From the NCBI RefSeq assembly GCF_001399755.1, contig NZ_LJCP01000008.1, positions 1 through 64,000 of the forward strand: 64,000 nt of DNA, given 5' to 3'. A program made the translations under genes and the position numbers. The first letter of the stretch is position 1. Every line of letters starts with the position of its first letter. The DNA is from Thiohalorhabdus denitrificans. Lineage in GTDB: Bacteria > Pseudomonadota > Gammaproteobacteria > Thiohalorhabdales > Thiohalorhabdaceae. Of this stretch, positions 43,521 through 54,353 are shown in pieces. The notes under the pieces are model-generated. The model saw nothing but the letters and a program-made list of their open reading frames with translations, did no database searches and was not told where the DNA came from.

Positions 43521-44536
43521 GCGCCGTCCCTTTCCTCGGCGGGGAAATGGTCGTAGCCGCCACTCTCCCCGGGCACGCCCGCGCCGAACACCTCACCAGG
43601 GCGCTCCGCCACCACCCGGCCGATGGGGGTGAAGCGGGTATCGGCCTCGTACTTGGCCCGGTGAATGCCCTCGAAGGCCTCCTCCCCGGCGGCGAAGACC
43701 AGCTCGAAGTCCTCGCCCCCGGACAGGGCCAGGGGCAGGGGGTCCCGCCCGGTGGCCCAGGACCACTCGCCCATGGGGGCCGACAGGGGCAGCCGCGCGG
43801 TGTCCAGCTCGAGGCCCACCCCGCTGGCCGACGCCAGATGGCGCAGGTCCGCGAGCAGGCCGTCGCTCACGTCGATGGCGGCGGAGGCCACCCCGGCGAT
43901 TCCCTGGCCGTAGGCCAGCGGGGGGCGCGGGCGCAGATGGCGCTCCACCAGGAGGTCGTAGGCGGGCAGCCAGTCCGCGGGGGGATCGCGGAGCAGCTCC
44001 AGCCCAGCGGCGGCGTCCCCCAGGGTGCCCGTGACGTACACGGTCTCGCCGGGGCGGGCGCCGTCGCGGCGCAGGGCCCGCTCCGGGGCCACCCGGCCGA
44101 GCAGGGTGAGGGATAGGGCCAACGGCCCCGGCGTGGCCACCGTGTCGCCGCCCACCAGGGCGATGCCCCACGTCTCCAGCGCCTCCTGCAGGCCGTCGGC
44201 CAGGAGGCCGGCCCGCTCCCGGGCCAGGTCCTTTGGCAGGGAGGCGGCGAGCAGGGCGTGGCGGGGCCGGGCCCCCATGGCGGCGAGGTCGGAGACGTTC
44301 ACGGCCACCGCCTTCCAGCCCAGCGCCGCGGCGTCGCCGCCCGGCAGGGCGTGCACGCCCTCCTCCACGGTGTCCACGGCCGCCACCCAGTCCGCGTCCC
44401 CGCCGTGGGCGAGCAGGGCGGCGTCGTCGCCGATGCCGGCGTGGACATCCGCCGGCCGGGAACGGTCGCGGTGGAAAAGCTCCTCGATGAGGGCGAATTC
44501 CCCCGCCGTGCCGATGCGCCCTTCCCTATCCGTCAC
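43517..44536 (-). CDS. thiL: thiamine-monophosphate kinase
   Basis: A 339-residue ThiL that phosphorylates thiamine phosphate to thiamine diphosphate. Metal and nucleotide sites are in GIGDDAALL, AVNVSDLAAMGARP, LVGGDTVATPGPL and AIDVSDGLLADLRHLA. It starts with GTG at 44536 and overlaps the nusB end by 11 bases. Confidence 0.95.
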   Translation of the reverse strand: MTDREGRIGTAGEFALIEELFHRDRSRPADVHAGIGDDAALLAHGGDADWVAAVDTVEEGVHALPGGDAAALGWKAVAVNVSDLAAMGARPRHALLAASLPKDLARERAGLLADGLQEALETWGIALVGGDTVATPGPLALSLTLLGRVAPERALRRDGARPGETVYVTGTLGDAAAGLELLRDPPADWLPAYDLLVERHLRPRPPLAYGQGIAGVASAAIDVSDGLLADLRHLASASGVGLELDTARLPLSAPMGEWSWATGRDPLPLALSGGEDFELVFAAGEEAFEGIHRAKYEADTRFTPIGRVVAERPGEVFGAGVPGESGGYDHFPAEERDGA

Positions 44537-44963
44537 CGGCGGAGCCCCCGTCCCCCTGGGCGCGGCGCTCGCGGGCGATGCGGTCGAGGACGGCGTTGAC
44601 GAAGCGATAGCCCTGGTCCGTGCCGAAGGACTTGGCCAGCTCCACCCCCTCGTTGATCACCACCCGGTAGGGCACGTCCTCCCGCTCCAGGAGCTCCCCG
44701 ACCCCGGCGCGCAGGATGGCCTGCTCCACGCCGGTGAGCTCGGAGAGGCGCCGGGGCATGATGGCCGGGGCGATGAGGGCGTCGATCTCCTCGTGGCGCT
44801 CCACGGCCTTGCGCAGCAGGTGCTGGAAATAGGCGCGCTCCGCCCCCTCCAGGTACCCGGCGTCGAGGAACTCCATCTCCAGCTCCCGGGGGTCCTGGGG
44901 GTTGTAATGCCACTGGTACAGCGCCTGCACCAGGGCCTCGCGGGCGCGGTGTCGTTCGTTCAT
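44526..44963 (-). CDS. nusB: transcription antitermination factor NusB
   Basis: A 145-residue all-helical RNA-binding protein. It acts with NusE/S10 in the antitermination complex on rRNA operons. Marks are RAREALVQALYQW at the N-terminus, RLSELTGVEQAILR and PYRVVINEGVELAKSFG. Start ATG at 44963, where family similarity begins. In most gammaproteobacteria it follows ribH closely; here 233 bp containing a REP-like element separate them. Confidence 0.96.
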   Translation of the reverse strand: MNERHRAREALVQALYQWHYNPQDPRELEMEFLDAGYLEGAERAYFQHLLRKAVERHEEIDALIAPAIMPRRLSELTGVEQAILRAGVGELLEREDVPYRVVINEGVELAKSFGTDQGYRFVNAVLDRIARERRAQGDGGSAGDG

Positions 44964-45071
44964 GGGACGGATGATTCCTGCCAGATGTGCTCGGTATAGA
45001 ATTCTATTAAGGAAAGGGGCCGTCCGCGTGCTCGCCCGCCAAAAGGGCTTCAGAACGTGCGCAGGCCGCAT

Positions 45072-45094
45072 GTAGGAGCCCGCTTCAGCGGGCG
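45072..45094. repeat. REP-like element (GTAGGAG type)
   Basis: GTAGGAGCCCGCTTCAGCGG followed by GCGA, close in form to Pseudomonas REP sequences; a weaker GAGCTCCTAC copy faces it near 45140. It lies between ribH and nusB, where it breaks an otherwise tight operon. Confidence 0.7.
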
Positions 45095-45196
45095 ATGGCC
45101 GGATAGGGCCCGCAGGGCTGGGTAGACATCGCTCCCTAAAGTGAGCTCCTACGAGTGAGCTCCCCCAGTTCCGAAGGCCGTTGTACCGGCCCGGCC

Positions 45197-45650
45197 TCAG
45201 CCCTCGAGCTGCCCCATCACCCGCACCATCTCCAGGGCGGCCATGGCGGCGTCGGCGCCCTTGTTGCCGGCCTTGGTGCCGGCGCGCTCGATGGCCTGCT
45301 CCAGGGTGTCGGTGGTGATGATGCCGTATCCCACCGGCACGCCCGATTCCATCTGCACCTGAGCCAGGCCCTTGCTAACCTCGGCGGCCACGTAGTCGAA
45401 ATGGGGGGTGGAGCCGCGGATCACCGCGCCCAGGGCGATGACGGCGTCGAAGCGGCCGCTGGCCGCCATGCGCTGGGCCGCCAAGGGGATCTCGAAGGAG
45501 CCGGGCACCCGCACCAGGGTCAGGTCGTCGCCGTCCGCTCCGTTGCGGACCAGGATGTCCTCGGCCCCGCCCACCATGTGGTCCACCACCAAGCTGTTGA
45601 AACGGCTGGCGATCAGGCCGAAGCGGAGTCCGCTCGCGTCCAGCCGGCCC

Positions 45651-45664
<14 letters not shown>
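45197..45664 (-). CDS. ribH: 6,7-dimethyl-8-ribityllumazine synthase
   Basis: A 155-residue lumazine synthase that joins the ribBA and ribD branch products to form the riboflavin precursor. Family marks are [52 protein letters not shown] and [23 protein letters not shown]. It overlaps the ribBA 3' end by 14 bases. Confidence 0.97.
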
Positions 45665-46943
<1,279 letters not shown>

Positions 46944-47112
46944 GGTCTCGTTGCTGCCAGCCGGGTGGGCGCCCGAATCCTCGGGCAGAATGGGTCACGG
47001 GCCGGGGCCTTGCCCCGACCCCGGATTCGCTCCGGCGGAGGGCGGGGCTCCGCCGCGGCTACGGATGAGACAGCCGCCCCCGCACGGGGTTCGGGATGGC
47101 CGGGGCCCGGCC

Positions 47113-47784
47113 CTAGCCGCCTTCCCCGAGCCCGGAAAAACCGGCCCGGGCCAGGGACGCCGCGTCCAGGCCGCCGCCCTCCCCGGATGCGTCCTCACCC
47201 CGCACGAGCCGCTCCAGGTAGCGGGCGATCAGGTCCACCTCCAGATTGAGCCGGTCGCCGGGGTGCCGGTCGCCCAGGGTGGTGTGGGCCAGGGTGTGCG
47301 GCACTAGGTTGACGTCGAAGCGGTTCCCCTCCACCCCGTTCACCGTCAGGCTCACCCCGTCCAGGCAGACCGAGCCCTTCTCGGCCACGTAGCGGCTCAG
47401 GTGCGCGGGGACCTCCAGGACGAAGCGCTCGCTGCGCGCCTCCTGGCGCCGTTCCTGCAGCACCGCCAGGCCGTCCACGTGGCCGGAGACCAGATGCCCC
47501 CCCAGCCGGGTGGTGGGCAGCAGGGCTTTCTCCAGGTTCACCCGGGAGCCCACCGTCAGGTCGCCGAAAGCGGTGCGCTCCCAGGTCTCCACAGAGACGT
47601 CGGCGGCGAAGCCCCCCTCCTCCAGGGCCACCACCGTGAGGCAGGGTCCGGAGACGGCGATGCTGTCGCCCAGGGCCACGTCGCCCAGCTCCAGACCGCC
47701 GGCGCGGATGGCGACCCGCCAGTCGCCCGCCGCGGGCTGGATGGAGCGCACGGTACCGACCGCCTGGATGATGCCTGTGAACAC
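47113..47784 (-). CDS. ribE: riboflavin synthase, alpha subunit
   Basis: A 223-residue enzyme that dismutates two lumazines to riboflavin. Two repeated barrel halves are visible: FTGIIQAVGTV at the start with GDSIAVSGPCLTV, and LGGHLVSGHVDG with GSVCLDGVSLTVNGV. The GTG start at 47784 gives the standard (M)FTGII opening. It lies between ribD and ribBA in the usual order. Confidence 0.96.
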   Translation of the reverse strand: MFTGIIQAVGTVRSIQPAAGDWRVAIRAGGLELGDVALGDSIAVSGPCLTVVALEEGGFAADVSVETWERTAFGDLTVGSRVNLEKALLPTTRLGGHLVSGHVDGLAVLQERRQEARSERFVLEVPAHLSRYVAEKGSVCLDGVSLTVNGVEGNRFDVNLVPHTLAHTTLGDRHPGDRLNLEVDLIARYLERLVRGEDASGEGGGLDAASLARAGFSGLGEGG

Positions 47785-47920
47785 GTTCGAAACCTTCCCG
47801 GCGGGGCCGGAGCAGCGGGGTCGGCGGAAGGCCGGGGCACGGCGCCTCTCCGCCCCATAGAGGATACCCGCCGCCACCCTTCGGGAAAACCCACCCGGGG
47901 TCCTCCCGGTTTCCCGGGAA

Positions 47921-49042
47921 TCACCCTTCCCGGTGCGGCTCGGCGACGATCCGGGTATCGGTACCGACGCCCCGGCGCTCCAGGATGCGCAGATTGATGC
48001 GCTCGGCCATGGAACCGATGGGCGGGCCCTCGAACATACCCAGCCCCCCGGCGCCGATGATGCTCGGCGCCTGGTAGGCCACCAGCCGGTCCACCCAGCC
48101 GCCGCGCAGCAGGGCCCCCGCCAGGGTGGCGCCGCACTCGGCCAGCACGGAGTTGATCTCCCGTCGGCCCAGCTCGTGGAGGACGGCGCCCAGGGCGGGG
48201 CAGCCCCCGTCGCCTTCCTCCAGGGTGATCACCTCGGCCCCCGCCGCTTCCAGGGCCCGGCGCCGCTCCGCCGAGGCTCCCGGGCCACCCACCATCAGGA
48301 CCCCCCCCGGGCCGGTCACCACCCGGGCCCCGGGCGGCGTGCGCAGGCGGCTGTCCAGGACCACCCGCAGGGGATGGGCGCCCCCCTCGGGGAGGCGCGC
48401 GGTGAGGGAGGGGTTGTCGGCGAGGACCGTGCCGCTGCCGGTGAGGAGGGCGGCGTGGGCGTGCCGCAGACGGTGGACGTCGGCGCGCGCCGCCTCGGAG
48501 GTGATCCACTGGCTCTCGCCGGTGCTGGTGGCCGTGTGGCCGTCCAGGCTGGAGGCCAACTTGAGGGTGAGCCACGGCCGGCCGCTGCGCACCCGGCTGA
48601 GGAAGCCGGCGTTCACCGCTTCCGCCTCCTCCGCCAGGAGCCCGCTCTCCGTGGCGATGCCGGCCTCCTCCAAGCGCCGCAGCCCGCGGCCCCGGACCCG
48701 CTCGTCCGGGTCCACCAGGGCGGCCACCACGCGCCCCACCCCCGCCTCCACCAGGCGGTCGGCGCAGGGCGGCGTGCGCCCGTGGTGGCTGCAGGGCTCC
48801 AGGGTGACGTAGGCCGTGGCGCCCCGGGCGGCCTCCCCGGCCCGCTCCAGGGCCCGCACCTCGGCGTGCGGTCCGCCCACGCGCTCGTGAAACCCCTCCC
48901 CCACCACGCGGCCGTCGCGCACCAGCACGCAGCCCACCATGGGGTTGGGGTCGGTCCAGCCCAGCCCCCGCCGCGCCAAGGCCAGGGCCCGGCGCATGTG
49001 GCGGGTATCCTCGGCGTGGGTGGCGGGCGGGGAATCCGGCAT
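47921..49042 (-). CDS. ribD: riboflavin deaminase/reductase
   Basis: A 373-residue bifunctional RibD. The deaminase domain (about 1-150) has the zinc site HAEVRAL and PCSHHGRTPPC. The reductase domain (about 155-373) has LKLASSLDGHTATSTGESQWITS and LAECGATLAGALL. ATG at 49042 is the family start; longer reading upstream runs into nrdR in another frame. Confidence 0.96.
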   Translation of the reverse strand: MPDSPPATHAEDTRHMRRALALARRGLGWTDPNPMVGCVLVRDGRVVGEGFHERVGGPHAEVRALERAGEAARGATAYVTLEPCSHHGRTPPCADRLVEAGVGRVVAALVDPDERVRGRGLRRLEEAGIATESGLLAEEAEAVNAGFLSRVRSGRPWLTLKLASSLDGHTATSTGESQWITSEAARADVHRLRHAHAALLTGSGTVLADNPSLTARLPEGGAHPLRVVLDSRLRTPPGARVVTGPGGVLMVGGPGASAERRRALEAAGAEVITLEEGDGGCPALGAVLHELGRREINSVLAECGATLAGALLRGGWVDRLVAYQAPSIIGAGGLGMFEGPPIGSMAERINLRILERRGVGTDTRIVAEPHREG

Positions 49043-49104
49043 GGGCGCCTGTCCGGTCAGCACCGGAGGGGGGGACGGTCGACGGCCGGGCCGGCGCGCA
49101 CGCC

Positions 49105-49563
49105 TCAGCCCTCCTCCCGGTTGAGGCGGTCCAACTCCGCCCGGAAGGCGTTGACGTCCTCGAAGCGGCGGTAGACCGAAGCGAAGCGCACGTAGGCCAC
49201 CTCGTCCAGGTCGCGCAGGGCCTCCATGACCCACTCGCCGATGCGCCGGGAGGGCAGCTCCTTCTCCCCGGACTGCATGAGGCGCTGCTTGATGTCCTGC
49301 ACCACCCCCTCCACGGCCTCGGAGGCCACGGGCCGCTTCTCCAGGGCCCGCATGAGCCCGGCGCGGAGCTTGTCCTCGCTGAAGGGCTCGCGGCGGCCGT
49401 CGCCCTTCACCACCTGGGGGAGGCGCATCTCCACCCGCTCGAAGGTGGTGAAGCGCGCCCCGCAGGCCTGGCAGGCGCGCCGGCGGCGAACCGCCGCGCC
49501 TCCCTCGGCCAGACGGCTGTCCTGGACCCGGGTCTCCTCGTTGCTGCAGAAGGGGCAGCGCAA
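49105..49563 (-). CDS. nrdR: transcriptional repressor NrdR
   Basis: A 152-residue NrdR, which senses ATP/dATP and represses ribonucleotide reductase genes. The zinc ribbon uses Cys3, Cys6, Cys31 and Cys34 (CPFC and CQAC); an ATP-cone follows ([20 protein letters not shown]). The start is a TTG at 49563 (normally MxCPFC), 17 bp after the glyA stop with GGAAAG upstream. Confidence 0.95.
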
Positions 49564-49580: not shown

Positions 49581-50834
<1,254 letters not shown>

Positions 50835-50911: not shown

Positions 50912-51349
50912 TCAGCCCTCGATGGACTCGATCTTCTCCACCCGGTTGGCGTGCCGCCCGCCCTCGAACTCCGCGCTCATCCACGCATCGAAGATGCTCG
51001 CGGCCAGGCCGGGGCCGATGGCGCGGCCGCCCAGGACCAGCACGTTGGCGTCGTTGTGCTGCCGGGACATGCGGGCCTCGAACTCGTTGTGGCAGAGAGC
51101 GGCGCGGACGCCCTTGTGGCGGTTGGCGGCCATGCTGATGCCCAGGCCGGTGCCGCACACCAGCACGGCCCGATCGGCCTCGCCGCTGCGCATCTTCTCC
51201 ACGGCCATCACGGCGTAGTCGGGGTAGTCCACGCTGGCGTCCTCGTGGGTCCCCAAGTCCACCACCTCGTAACCGCGCTCGCGTGCGTGCTCCAGAACCA
51301 TGCGTCGCAGCTCAAGGCCGCCGTGATCGGATGCCATTACAATGCGCAT
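50912..51349 (-). CDS. rpiB: ribose-5-phosphate isomerase B
   Basis: A 145-residue RpiB/LacAB isomerase. Active-site blocks are [27 protein letters not shown] with the catalytic Cys, and [11 protein letters not shown]. Start 51349 is where similarity begins. The order rpiB-glyA-nrdR is common in proteobacteria. It is divergent from the RqcH gene. Confidence 0.95.
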
Positions 51350-51456
51350 GCCCGCCTCCAGAAAATTCAAGGGCCGAAGCGTGGTTCGGCTCGTCATTGG
51401 GCAACTGATAAACTATTTAACTTACGAAATCCGCCTTCCCAGTGCAAGCATAGACC

Positions 51457-53151
51457 ATGGACGTCATCCAGCTACATGCCGCCGCGGCCAGCCTCGCGCC
51501 TCGGTTCACGGGCCGCGCCGTGCGGGCCGTGGGCGGGCCCGAGCAGGCCCCCGAGCTGCACTTCGGCGCCCCCCCCATCCTGCGCGTGTCCCTCACGGGC
51601 CAGTTCCGGGGCCTGTTCCCCCTGAGCGAGACCCAGGGGGACGCGGAGGGCGGCTTCCCGGCCTACCTCCACCAGCGTCTGGCCGGGTTCCACCTGGAGG
51701 CCATCGAGCATCCCTGGCCCGACCGAGTGGTGGTGCTGCGCTTCGCCCGCAAGCGCCTCACCGGCAAATACGACCGCCGCGCCCTGGTGGCCGAGTTCCT
51801 GGGCAAGCGCTGCAACGCCGCCCTGCTCACCAGCGACGACCGGGTGGACCGGCCCCTGCACCGGCCCGATCTCACCGACCCCGACGCCCGCTTCCTGCCG
51901 GGCATGGCCTACCGCCCCCCGGCGGCCCCGCCCGGCAGCGAGGCGGCCCAATGGAGCCTCCTGGAGGGTCCTCCTCCGGCCGACCTCGACCTCTCCGGAC
52001 CCGCCGAGGAGGTGGCCCGGCGGGTGGTACCCCTGCCGCCACGGCTAGCCCAGGCCCTCGAGGAGCTGGGTGCCGGGGAACGCCGCGACCTGCTGGCCAC
52101 CGCCGCCGAAGCCCTCGCCGAGCCAACCACGCAGTGGTTCCTCCACGAGGTGGAGGGCAAGCGCTTCCTCTACCCTTTCCCCCTGCCCAACTGGGCGGAG
52201 CCCGTGCCGGCCGGCCCCCTGGAGGAGGCCTGGCCGGGCTACATCGAGGCCACCATCCGCGCGGCCCGCGAGGAGCGCCTGCGCCAGCGCCTGGCCAGCC
52301 GCCTGCGCGGCCACCGCAAGCGCCTGGAGGATCGCCTGGAGAAGGTGCTGGCGGACGAGGCCCGGCACGCCCACCCGGAGGAGTACCGGCGGTACGGCCA
52401 GGCCCTTACCAGCCTAGGCGGCGGCGTGGCGCGGGAGGAGAACGTAGCCGCCACCGACTACCTGGCCAACCCGCCCGAGACCATTCGGGTCCCAGCGACG
52501 CCCGGTCGCAGCTACCAGGAGGAGGCCGAGCGCTACTTCAACAAGGCGCGCAAGGCGGAGCGCGGCCAGGAGCTCGCGGCCCGGCGGCGCTTCGAGACGG
52601 AGAGCGATCTCGCGGAGGTGGCCCGCCTGGAGGCGGACCTGGAGGAGGCCGACGCGGACACCCTGGAGGCCGTCGCCGACCGCCTGGATCGGCTGGAGGC
52701 GCTGCCGGCCGAGGAGCGCCACGGCACCCGCAAGCGCTCCCCCGAGGGCCCCGAGCCGCCTCGCGAGTACCAGTACGGGGGCCACACCATCCTGGTGGGC
52801 ACCACCCGCGCCACCAACGACTGGCTCACCTTCCGACGGTCCCGGCCGTGGGACATCTGGCTCCACGTCCAGGGTCTGCCCGGCGCCCACGTGGTCATCC
52901 CGCGCGACCGCAAGGACCCCCTACCCCCGGACGAGGTGCTGGAGCACGCCGCCCGCTTGGTCGTCACCCACAGCCCCAAGGCGGACCGCAAGGCCGAGGT
53001 GGACTGGACCGAGGTGAAATACGTCCGCCGCCACCCCAACGGCAAGCCCGGCCAGGCCCTGTACACCCACTACCAGACCATCCTGGCCGAGGCCCTGCCC
53101 CCGGACGAGCTGTCCGCCGAGGCCCCGGCCCCTTCCGGACAGGAGCCATGA
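51457..53151 (+). CDS. NFACT family protein (RqcH-like)
   Basis: A 564-residue NFACT protein, the bacterial relative of Rqc2/NEMF. RqcH binds obstructed 50S-peptidyl-tRNA complexes and adds C-terminal Ala tails that mark the chain for decay. The NFACT-N part (about 1-180) has PDRVVVLRF; Asp89-Arg90 correspond in position to the Asp-Arg pair needed for tailing in Bacillus RqcH. Next are the helical coiled-coil middle (about 250-420) and the NFACT-R domain with TNDWLTFRRSRPWDIWLHVQ and PGAHVVI. The family is rare in gammaproteobacteria. Start ATG at 51457. The stop overlaps maf (ATGA), so the two are coupled. Confidence 0.87.
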   Translation: MDVIQLHAAAASLAPRFTGRAVRAVGGPEQAPELHFGAPPILRVSLTGQFRGLFPLSETQGDAEGGFPAYLHQRLAGFHLEAIEHPWPDRVVVLRFARKRLTGKYDRRALVAEFLGKRCNAALLTSDDRVDRPLHRPDLTDPDARFLPGMAYRPPAAPPGSEAAQWSLLEGPPPADLDLSGPAEEVARRVVPLPPRLAQALEELGAGERRDLLATAAEALAEPTTQWFLHEVEGKRFLYPFPLPNWAEPVPAGPLEEAWPGYIEATIRAAREERLRQRLASRLRGHRKRLEDRLEKVLADEARHAHPEEYRRYGQALTSLGGGVAREENVAATDYLANPPETIRVPATPGRSYQEEAERYFNKARKAERGQELAARRRFETESDLAEVARLEADLEEADADTLEAVADRLDRLEALPAEERHGTRKRSPEGPEPPREYQYGGHTILVGTTRATNDWLTFRRSRPWDIWLHVQGLPGAHVVIPRDRKDPLPPDEVLEHAARLVVTHSPKADRKAEVDWTEVKYVRRHPNGKPGQALYTHYQTILAEALPPDELSAEAPAPSGQEP

Positions 53152-53732
53152 GCGCGCCCCCGCTGATCCTCGCCTCCACCTCCCCCTACCGCGCCGCCCA
53201 GCTCCGCCAGCTGGGGCTGGACTTCGAAACCGTCCCCCCCGGCGCGGACGAAACGCCCCGCCCCGGGGAGACCCCGGAAGCCCTTGCCGGGCGCCTCGCC
53301 GATGCCAAGGCAACCGCGGTGGCCCGCCGGCGCCCGGAGGCGGTGGTCATCGGCTCGGACCAGTGCGCCGCCCTCGGCCCGCGGATCCTCGGTAAGCCCG
53401 GGGATTTCGATACCGCCCGTGAGCAGCTTCGGGCGGCCTCGGGAAACACCGTGGTCTTCCACACGGGCGTCTGTGTCCGCCGGGGGGACAGCGGATTCCA
53501 CCGCACGATGGTGGTGCCCTTCGCCGCCACCTTCCGGGAGCTGAGCGACGACCGGATCGCCCGCTACCTGGAGCACGACCGGCCCTACGACTGCGCGGGG
53601 AGCATCCGCACCGAGGGTTTGGGCCCGGCGCTCCTGGAACGCACCGAAGGTGACGACCCCACCGCGGTCACCGGGCTGCCGCTGATCCACACCGTGCGCC
53701 TGCTGGAGGCCGCCGGACGGCCCGTGCTCTGA
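53148..53732 (+). CDS. Maf-family nucleoside triphosphate pyrophosphatase
   Basis: A 194-residue Maf enzyme that hydrolyses non-canonical or modified NTPs. Motifs are LILASTSPYRAAQL at the N-terminus, VIGSDQ with the catalytic Asp, and YDCAGSIRTEGLG. The SIRTEG-type C-terminal pattern suggests the YceF (m7GTP) branch over the dTTP/UTP branch, with moderate confidence. It overlaps the NFACT gene by 4 bases. Confidence 0.92.
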   Translation: MSAPPLILASTSPYRAAQLRQLGLDFETVPPGADETPRPGETPEALAGRLADAKATAVARRRPEAVVIGSDQCAALGPRILGKPGDFDTAREQLRAASGNTVVFHTGVCVRRGDSGFHRTMVVPFAATFRELSDDRIARYLEHDRPYDCAGSIRTEGLGPALLERTEGDDPTAVTGLPLIHTVRLLEAAGRPVL

Positions 53733-53761
53733 GCTCCTGTCGCTTTTTTTGGCGACCTCCT

Positions 53762-53990
53762 CTTGACAAATTGTTCACATCCTTCCGGGCACCCCCGAAC
53801 CCCCACTGTCCGATCCAACCACCCTGTCAAGGACAACCAGAAACTAACATTAATAGACTGTTTTTAAAGGTTTTTATATGTATGCCCAAGAACTAGGCAG
53901 GACCGCCCAACCTCCCGTGTCCCAAGGGCTCAGCGGCGCTACACAAGGGTTTTCCCCAAGGTTTTCCACAGGAACTGTGGGGAATCGTTC
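53762..53990 (+). repeat. DnaA-box module, copy 1
   Basis: Four landmarks in order: CTTGAC plus TTGTTCACA (53762-53779); an AT-rich patch at 53841-53884; CAAGGGCTCAGCG at 53923-53935; and TTTTCCCCAAGG with TTTTCCACAGGAACTGTGG from 53950, ending at 53990. TTGTTCACA and TTTTCCACA each differ from the DnaA box TTATNCACA at position 3. The module matches copies 2 and 3 in spacing. Confidence 0.8.
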
Positions 53991-54127
53991 ATCCCCGAGC
54001 GCCGCTCCGTGGGGCCTGGGGCCCGCCTTCGACCGGCTTTCCCAGGGGATCCGGGGAAGCGGCCCGAAGGCCCCCTGACGAGACCGGCCCTTTCGCCGGA
54101 CCCCATGGACAGTCCCCCCACTTTCCC

Positions 54128-54353
54128 CTTGACTTTTGTTCACAGAGCGACCCAGGCCCCCACCCGGATCCGGACAAGCCCCCAGCATCCCGCCATTCCC
54201 GGAAGCCAAGAATGCATCTTTCTGTTTTTACTTTATTTTTTAAGGTGCCTACACCTTAACCCGAAATGCCGAAAGCCCGACGACACAAGGGCTCAGCGGC
54301 ATTTCCCAGGCCTTTTCCCCAAGGTTATCCACAGGGCGTGTTAGGAATTGTCC
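54128..54353 (+). repeat. DnaA-box module, copy 2
   Basis: CTTGAC with TTGTTCACA (54128-54144), AT-rich patch 54211-54245, CAAGGGCTCAGCG at 54286-54298, then TTTTCCCCAAGG and a perfect DnaA box TTATCCACA at 54325-54333. The last 29 bases align to copies 1 and 3 without gaps. It is in the same orientation as copy 1. Confidence 0.8.

Follow-up and report, generated by a model that had tools for sequence, protein, structure and literature searches.

RqcH, MutS2 and RqcP in two gammaproteobacterial orders point to a probable RQC pathway of the Bacillus subtilis type

We found that rqcH is near-universal in two orders of Gammaproteobacteria and is accompanied there by MutS2 and RqcP, encoded in conserved operons; the picture of one odd gene, given by the first-pass annotation, was not borne out. 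The gene under study lies in a 64,000-nucleotide stretch of DNA from Thiohalorhabdus denitrificans (contig NZ_LJCP01000008.1, positions 1 to 64,000), which as a whole is called the window. Judging from sequence comparisons, it very probably encodes a bona fide RqcH that acts in an RQC pathway of the B. subtilis type, the module being an old trait common to the window's order and to the Acidithiobacillus order. What deserves attention is that two orders carry a whole RQC set as a fixed trait although their class has been described as lacking RQC; this corrects the published account, in which RQC is undetected in any Proteobacteria.

The expectation of the first-pass annotation that RqcH is generally absent from proteobacteria agrees with the available text of a published survey, which reports rqcH in 0 of 6,080 Proteobacteria (Callan 2024, PMC11633108). 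The same survey, carried out with DNA profiles, gives rqcH in 0/14 Acidithiobacillia and 0/2,704 Gammaproteobacteria, and mutS2 in 5/14 Acidithiobacillia. As cited there, Takada 2024 reportedly observed RqcH in 0.14% of 15,204 proteobacterial genomes. The main text of Takada 2024 (PMC11317155) holds no word starting with Proteobacteria or Pseudomonadota, and therefore the presence of RqcH in these lineages is probably already contained in its supplementary table. A literature search for RqcH, NFACT or RQC together with gammaproteobacteria, proteobacteria, Acidithiobacillus or Acidithiobacillia returned, among the portions of text retrieved, no discussion of RqcH in these lineages.

The rqcH gene (positions 51457-53151, plus strand) codes for a 564-aa protein of the RqcH/NEMF family with NFACT-N, HhH, CC-M and NFACT-R parts, an identity proposed at first pass and now upheld by Pfam, a PDB sequence search, an AlphaFold2 model with its fold matches and a family tree. 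The Pfam NFACT_N match, which takes in the N-terminal and middle domains, covered residues 66-422 (51652-52722, plus strand; the span in the genome search was nearly equal, 51649-52722) at 2.8e-27. The NFACT-R domain, also recognised earlier, was matched by NFACT-R_1 over residues 442-528 (52780-53040, plus strand) at 4.8e-7. Both scores were above the curated cut-offs, and NFACT-N and NFACT-R stand together in one protein, the combination that defines RqcH as the bacterial NEMF family. When the window protein was searched against the PDB, chains of B. subtilis RqcH were the best matches (6e-29, residues 69-543). In this alignment D89-R90 (codons at 51721-51726, plus strand) fall on B. subtilis RqcH positions 97-98, an offset of 8, which confirms that Asp89-Arg90 is kept in NFACT-N; the pair was invariant in alignments A1 and A3 of RqcH proteins. 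The identity between the two proteins, ~20%, counts against a pathway of the B. subtilis type. The GC3 of rqcH was 0.93, inside the range of 0.88-0.96 spanned by six neighbouring genes, as the earlier remark on GC-rich codon use like that of the neighbours would have it. Compared with G121, the closest sister genome, the dN/dS of rqcH was 0.17 (555 codons), a value that shows purifying selection. On sequence grounds, then, rqcH is a real, maintained gene, and its product is an ordinary member of the family.

The predicted structure leads to the same family. The AlphaFold2 model, built from a 21-row alignment of the window protein and the locus proteins, had a mean pLDDT of 87.3 and a pTM of 0.58. 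Its best Foldseek matches were B. subtilis RqcH 8s1u and 7aqc (E ~1e-28), and 8s1u, 7aqc and 7as8 matched model residues 1-546 or beyond, that is, the whole-length fold of ribosome-bound RqcH including HhH and coiled-coil/M. Alignment with VIA-align to 8s1u, 7aqc, 7as8 and 7ope gave Z 22.6-24.5 over 465-510 residues at a global rmsd of ~19-22, which probably reflects different domain angles in the model. The N-terminal half of the model fits FBPS 5h3x with Z 22.8 and an rmsd of 3.1 over 253 residues, and eukaryotic NEMF/Rqc2 structures were matched with Z 19.8 (9gy4) and Z 17.5 (8aaf).

Two NCBIfam labels for the window protein, EfbA and RqcH_arch, were dropped because both scores were far below cut-off. 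NF041120 RqcH_arch, taken from its name as an archaeal equivalog, gave 37.7 bits against a curated cut-off of 400, and the protein was not filed there; this low score also counts against the B. subtilis-type reading. The best NCBIfam match was the exception model fibro_bind_EfbA, and this match, like the old family name FbpA/PavA, would suggest a fibronectin-binding protein of the cell surface, although the score was 102 bits against a cut-off of 1025. We regard such a function as extremely improbable, given the whole-length match of the model to ribosome-bound RqcH and co-occurring partners that act on ribosomes. The NFACT-R part of the model is also like the DNA-binding CCDC25, a resemblance that would suit another history of the gene: rqcH would have come from another phylum in one old horizontal transfer and then been kept for a non-tailing function such as nucleic-acid binding by NFACT-R.

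The distribution of rqcH bears on that history. The gene was present in 3/3 genomes of the window's order (the copy in G236 is cut by a contig end) and, by profile search, in 28/31 genomes of the Acidithiobacillus order, to which G280 belongs; from these counts, the window's rqcH is not isolated, and it was not acquired recently. The three Acidithiobacillus-order genomes without a match are 69-81% complete; with a completeness threshold of 90% and a contamination limit of 5%, 25/25 genomes carry the gene. A scan of named genomes gave 32 loci, including those of Acidithiobacillus ferrivorans, sulfurivorans, concretivorus and sulfuriphilus and of Igneacidithiobacillus. Across the class, PF05833 was above its cut-off in 5 of 369 genomes, and a sixth true copy, that of G280, was below it; in a 398-genome sample of the phylum the RqcH profile matched two, the window and G397. 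Such scarcity in other Pseudomonadota speaks for the transfer. Weak PF05833 matches in 17 further genomes of the class were taken as not RqcH, from their span alone (profile ~164-286), which is the region where helix-hairpin-helix proteins are expected to match. The copy in G397 (L107:910-2460, G397:C3), from another class of the phylum, is a divergent RqcH relative with ER, not DR, and by eye it lies beside a ParA-like gene.

The family tree was made from 51 loci with a match, of which eight were left out (seven duplicates and the partial L060), leaving 43 rows. The tree is unrooted, its outgroups were picked by sequence pattern, and G397 is one of several rows with long branches. A branch supported at 97/94 has all 21 Pseudomonadota rows, that of G397 included, on the same side. 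The Asp-Arg motif in NFACT-N that marks RqcH was present in 19/19 full-length copies from the window's and the Acidithiobacillus orders, and a clade without the tailing residues, named beforehand as evidence that would speak against the assignment, was not found. The other 24 rows had DR in 12, ER in 3 (G397 included) and another or missing pair in 9, some of these from truncation or misalignment. The placement of all Pseudomonadota copies on the same side of that branch, together with mutS2 and rqcP operons common to both orders, would also fit a history in which the ancestor of Gammaproteobacteria had RQC and most of the class has since lost it, so that the two orders are a remnant; the alternative is a gain in the common ancestor of both. 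Since the tree is unrooted and the outgroup sampling is biased by the search pattern, we consider ancestral RQC plausible but somewhat short of an even chance.

We also compared the neighbourhood of rqcH. In the window the gene is followed by maf (53148-53732, plus strand; Pfam Maf 4e-49, also NCBIfam), which codes for a Maf-family nucleotide pyrophosphatase and whose ATG start lies within the rqcH stop (ATGA). The translational coupling to maf proposed at first pass is thus real as an overlap in the window, but it is not kept within the genus: in G121 maf lies ~78 nt downstream without overlap, and in G236 the overlap is GTGA. Among the Acidithiobacillus-order loci compared, no common maf neighbour was found. 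The coupling was therefore rejected as a functional clue, and maf, with a dN/dS of 0.40 against G121 (194 codons), is probably only a neighbour of rqcH. After maf, positions 53733-54300 are A/T-richer and by eye hold a short repeated motif around AAGGGCTCAGCGGC.

On the opposite side a divergent unit begins with rpiB (50912-51397, minus strand; Pfam LacAB_rpiB 1e-57) and continues with glyA (49581-50834, minus strand; Pfam SHMT 1.3e-173) and nrdR, which lies between glyA and ribD. The ribD, ribE, ribBA and nusB genes of this nrdR/riboflavin/nusB unit (44526-49234, minus strand; Pfam) are conserved in G121, G026 and G172. The spacer that separates the divergent rpiB and rqcH genes (51398-51456), compared by eye, is largely conserved in G121 and may carry promoters for both directions. 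In G026 and G172, which belong to the other order, the glyA-to-nusB unit with a divergent rqcH recurs without rpiB between them, and there the glyA orthologue, its identity confirmed for G172, is the immediate divergent neighbour; rqcH is divergent from the glyA unit in families f1 and f27. At four Acidithiobacillaceae loci (L116, L117, L037 and L038) rqcH instead adjoins an ATP-sulfurylase/APS-kinase gene, and this change of neighbours is a further point in favour of horizontal transfer.

The partner genes weigh on the other side. MutS2 with both ATPase and SMR parts, as belongs to bacterial RQC, was found: MutS2 that matches almost the whole profile (from position 3 or 8 up to 789 or 790) occurred in 5/369 genomes of the class, namely the window genome (G000), G121, G236, G026 and G172, all of which carry RqcH. 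A MutS2-length frame with SMR was present in 24 of 25 RqcH-positive genomes (25 tested of the 31 found), and in the 25th, G280, mutS2 is interrupted by a run of N; at this locus (L103, G280:C6) MutS2 stops at the N run and the SMR part is in a separate frame. The MutS2 of the window genome (G000:C7) scored 676 bits against an NCBIfam mutS2 cut-off of 400 and had B. subtilis MutS2 in 7qv3 as its best PDB match (6.7e-105); it has Walker A and the SMR domain, and by eye also a KOW-like stretch. The SMR residues were DLR in 4/4 proteins checked, including that of the window genome, and DLR is likewise given for B. subtilis MutS2 in the available text of PMC10897456. Additional MutS2-like and SMR proteins were noted. 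In the window genome another MutS2-like ATPase, 533 aa long (L102:503-2104, G000:C7:192008-193549), covers the first 513 profile positions only, without the SMR end, and short MutS2-like forms above cut-off were seen in 18/369 class genomes, including 5/6 RqcH-positive ones. A separate SMR protein with DLH occurs beside MutS2 in G000 and G385 (L122 and L124) and matches the NCBI SmrA and SmrB models, below both cut-offs.

The search for rqcP suggested at first pass was successful in all 8 genomes tested of the 31 RqcH-positive ones. The rule for RqcP given in the available text of Takada 2024 (PMC11317155) asks for R2, D4, KRR and a length, counted from R2 to the C-terminus, of no more than 110 residues; the S4 proteins found here have R2, D4 and KRR, and in the four measured this length is 82-88 residues. 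That of the window genome (G000:C8:156369) matched YabO/RqcP in the PDB at 1.4e-13 versus Hsp15 at 2.3e-3, and the NCBIfam Hsp15 score of the RqcP-type protein was 19.4 bits against a cut-off of 148.

Both partner genes keep their positions across the two orders (operon gene names are in part from Pfam and otherwise by similarity). We found mutS2 between yqeY and dnaG-rpoD in G000, G026, G385 and G389, and rqcP just upstream of pdxA-ksgA in G000, G026 and G385; in G000 rqcP is also just downstream of surA, and a homologous gene occupies the same place in G026. A conserved rpsU-gatB-mutS2-dnaG-rpoD cluster of Acidithiobacillia is mentioned in the available text of a 2023 paper (PMC10561277). 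The same mutS2 and rqcP operons in both orders suggest old common inheritance, and the shared positions speak for a single origin of the two genes. Because the co-occurrence rests on two lineages, it may stand for just one or two evolutionary events, and the location of rqcH, which is not near rqcP or mutS2 and is a different one in Acidithiobacillaceae, counts against a B. subtilis-type module. Nevertheless, a transferred gene with a non-tailing role appears very improbable to us: the DR site is kept in all 19 copies, RqcP and MutS2 are present wherever tested in operons common to both orders, and a role outside RQC leaves the co-retention of these two proteins unexplained.

RqcH-positive genomes also have other means of ribosome rescue. 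Full-length tmRNA was found in 13/13 genomes tested, among them the window genome, where the ssrA gene asked after at first pass encodes the tag ADNEEFAVAA. ArfA was found in 0/13 of these genomes, and the E. coli control gave a match. ArfB-sized RF-1 frames were present in 5/13, all of the window's genus or f27; the 8 Acidithiobacillaceae genomes had none. The view that proteobacteria rely on ArfA/B therefore fails for the Acidithiobacillaceae, with neither found in 8/8 tested genomes.

From the genes, domains, key residues, co-occurrence and operon positions described above, we infer each biochemical step of the B. subtilis-type pathway in these bacteria. MutS2 would recognise collided ribosomes and split the stalled one, so that peptidyl-tRNA stays on the 50S, and RqcP would hold the P-site tRNA. 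The window RqcH would bind the obstructed 50S through NFACT-N, HhH and CC-M, recruit Ala-tRNA with the help of D89-R90 and add an untemplated alanine tail, which would expose the chain for release by Pth and for decay by proteases. Pth and ClpXP would form the end of the pathway. RQC would run beside tmRNA and, in the window's genus and f27, beside ArfB as well.

A wider scenario is offered tentatively, as one that we think unlikely to hold in full. The complete MutS2-RqcH-RqcP set may have been fixed in the two orders from one ancestor and may be the sole known backup of tmRNA in Acidithiobacillaceae (no ArfA or ArfB found). In the rest of the class, RqcH and full-length MutS2 may have disappeared and SmrB-type cleavage persisted, and an RqcP-type S4 protein may have become Hsp15; E. 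coli Hsp15 would then be left over from an RQC pathway that has been lost. Should Acidithiobacillaceae have no backup other than RQC, joint loss of ssrA and rqcH would be expected to be lethal. These lineages provide cultivable hosts for comparing tmRNA, RQC and, in some, ArfB, and the relation of RqcP to Hsp15 and of MutS2 splitting to SmrB cleavage becomes testable within one class.

Compared with known systems, the window protein shares with eukaryotic NEMF/Rqc2 the arrangement of NFACT-N, coiled-coil and NFACT-R. According to the available text of PMC8012679, NEMF has an extra C-terminal NFACT-C domain; in contrast, the 564-aa window protein ends soon after NFACT-R, and there is thus no room for NFACT-C. 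The rescue set of E. coli (SmrB, tmRNA, ArfA/ArfB and Hsp15) is alike in the tmRNA found throughout and in the ArfB-sized RF-1 frames of some genomes, and unlike in that RqcH, an RqcP-type S4 protein and full-length MutS2 are present here and ArfA was found in none of the 13 genomes tested. The RqcH/RqcP/MutS2(RqcU) system of B. subtilis differs in RqcH identity (~20%), in the gammaproteobacterial host, in the ArfB that the window's genus also has and in the separate DLH SMR protein beside MutS2. It is nonetheless alike in the domain set and DR site of RqcH, in tmRNA running in parallel, in an RqcP-type partner that has KRR without a long C-terminal extension, and in a MutS2 with Walker A and the DLR of the SMR domain.
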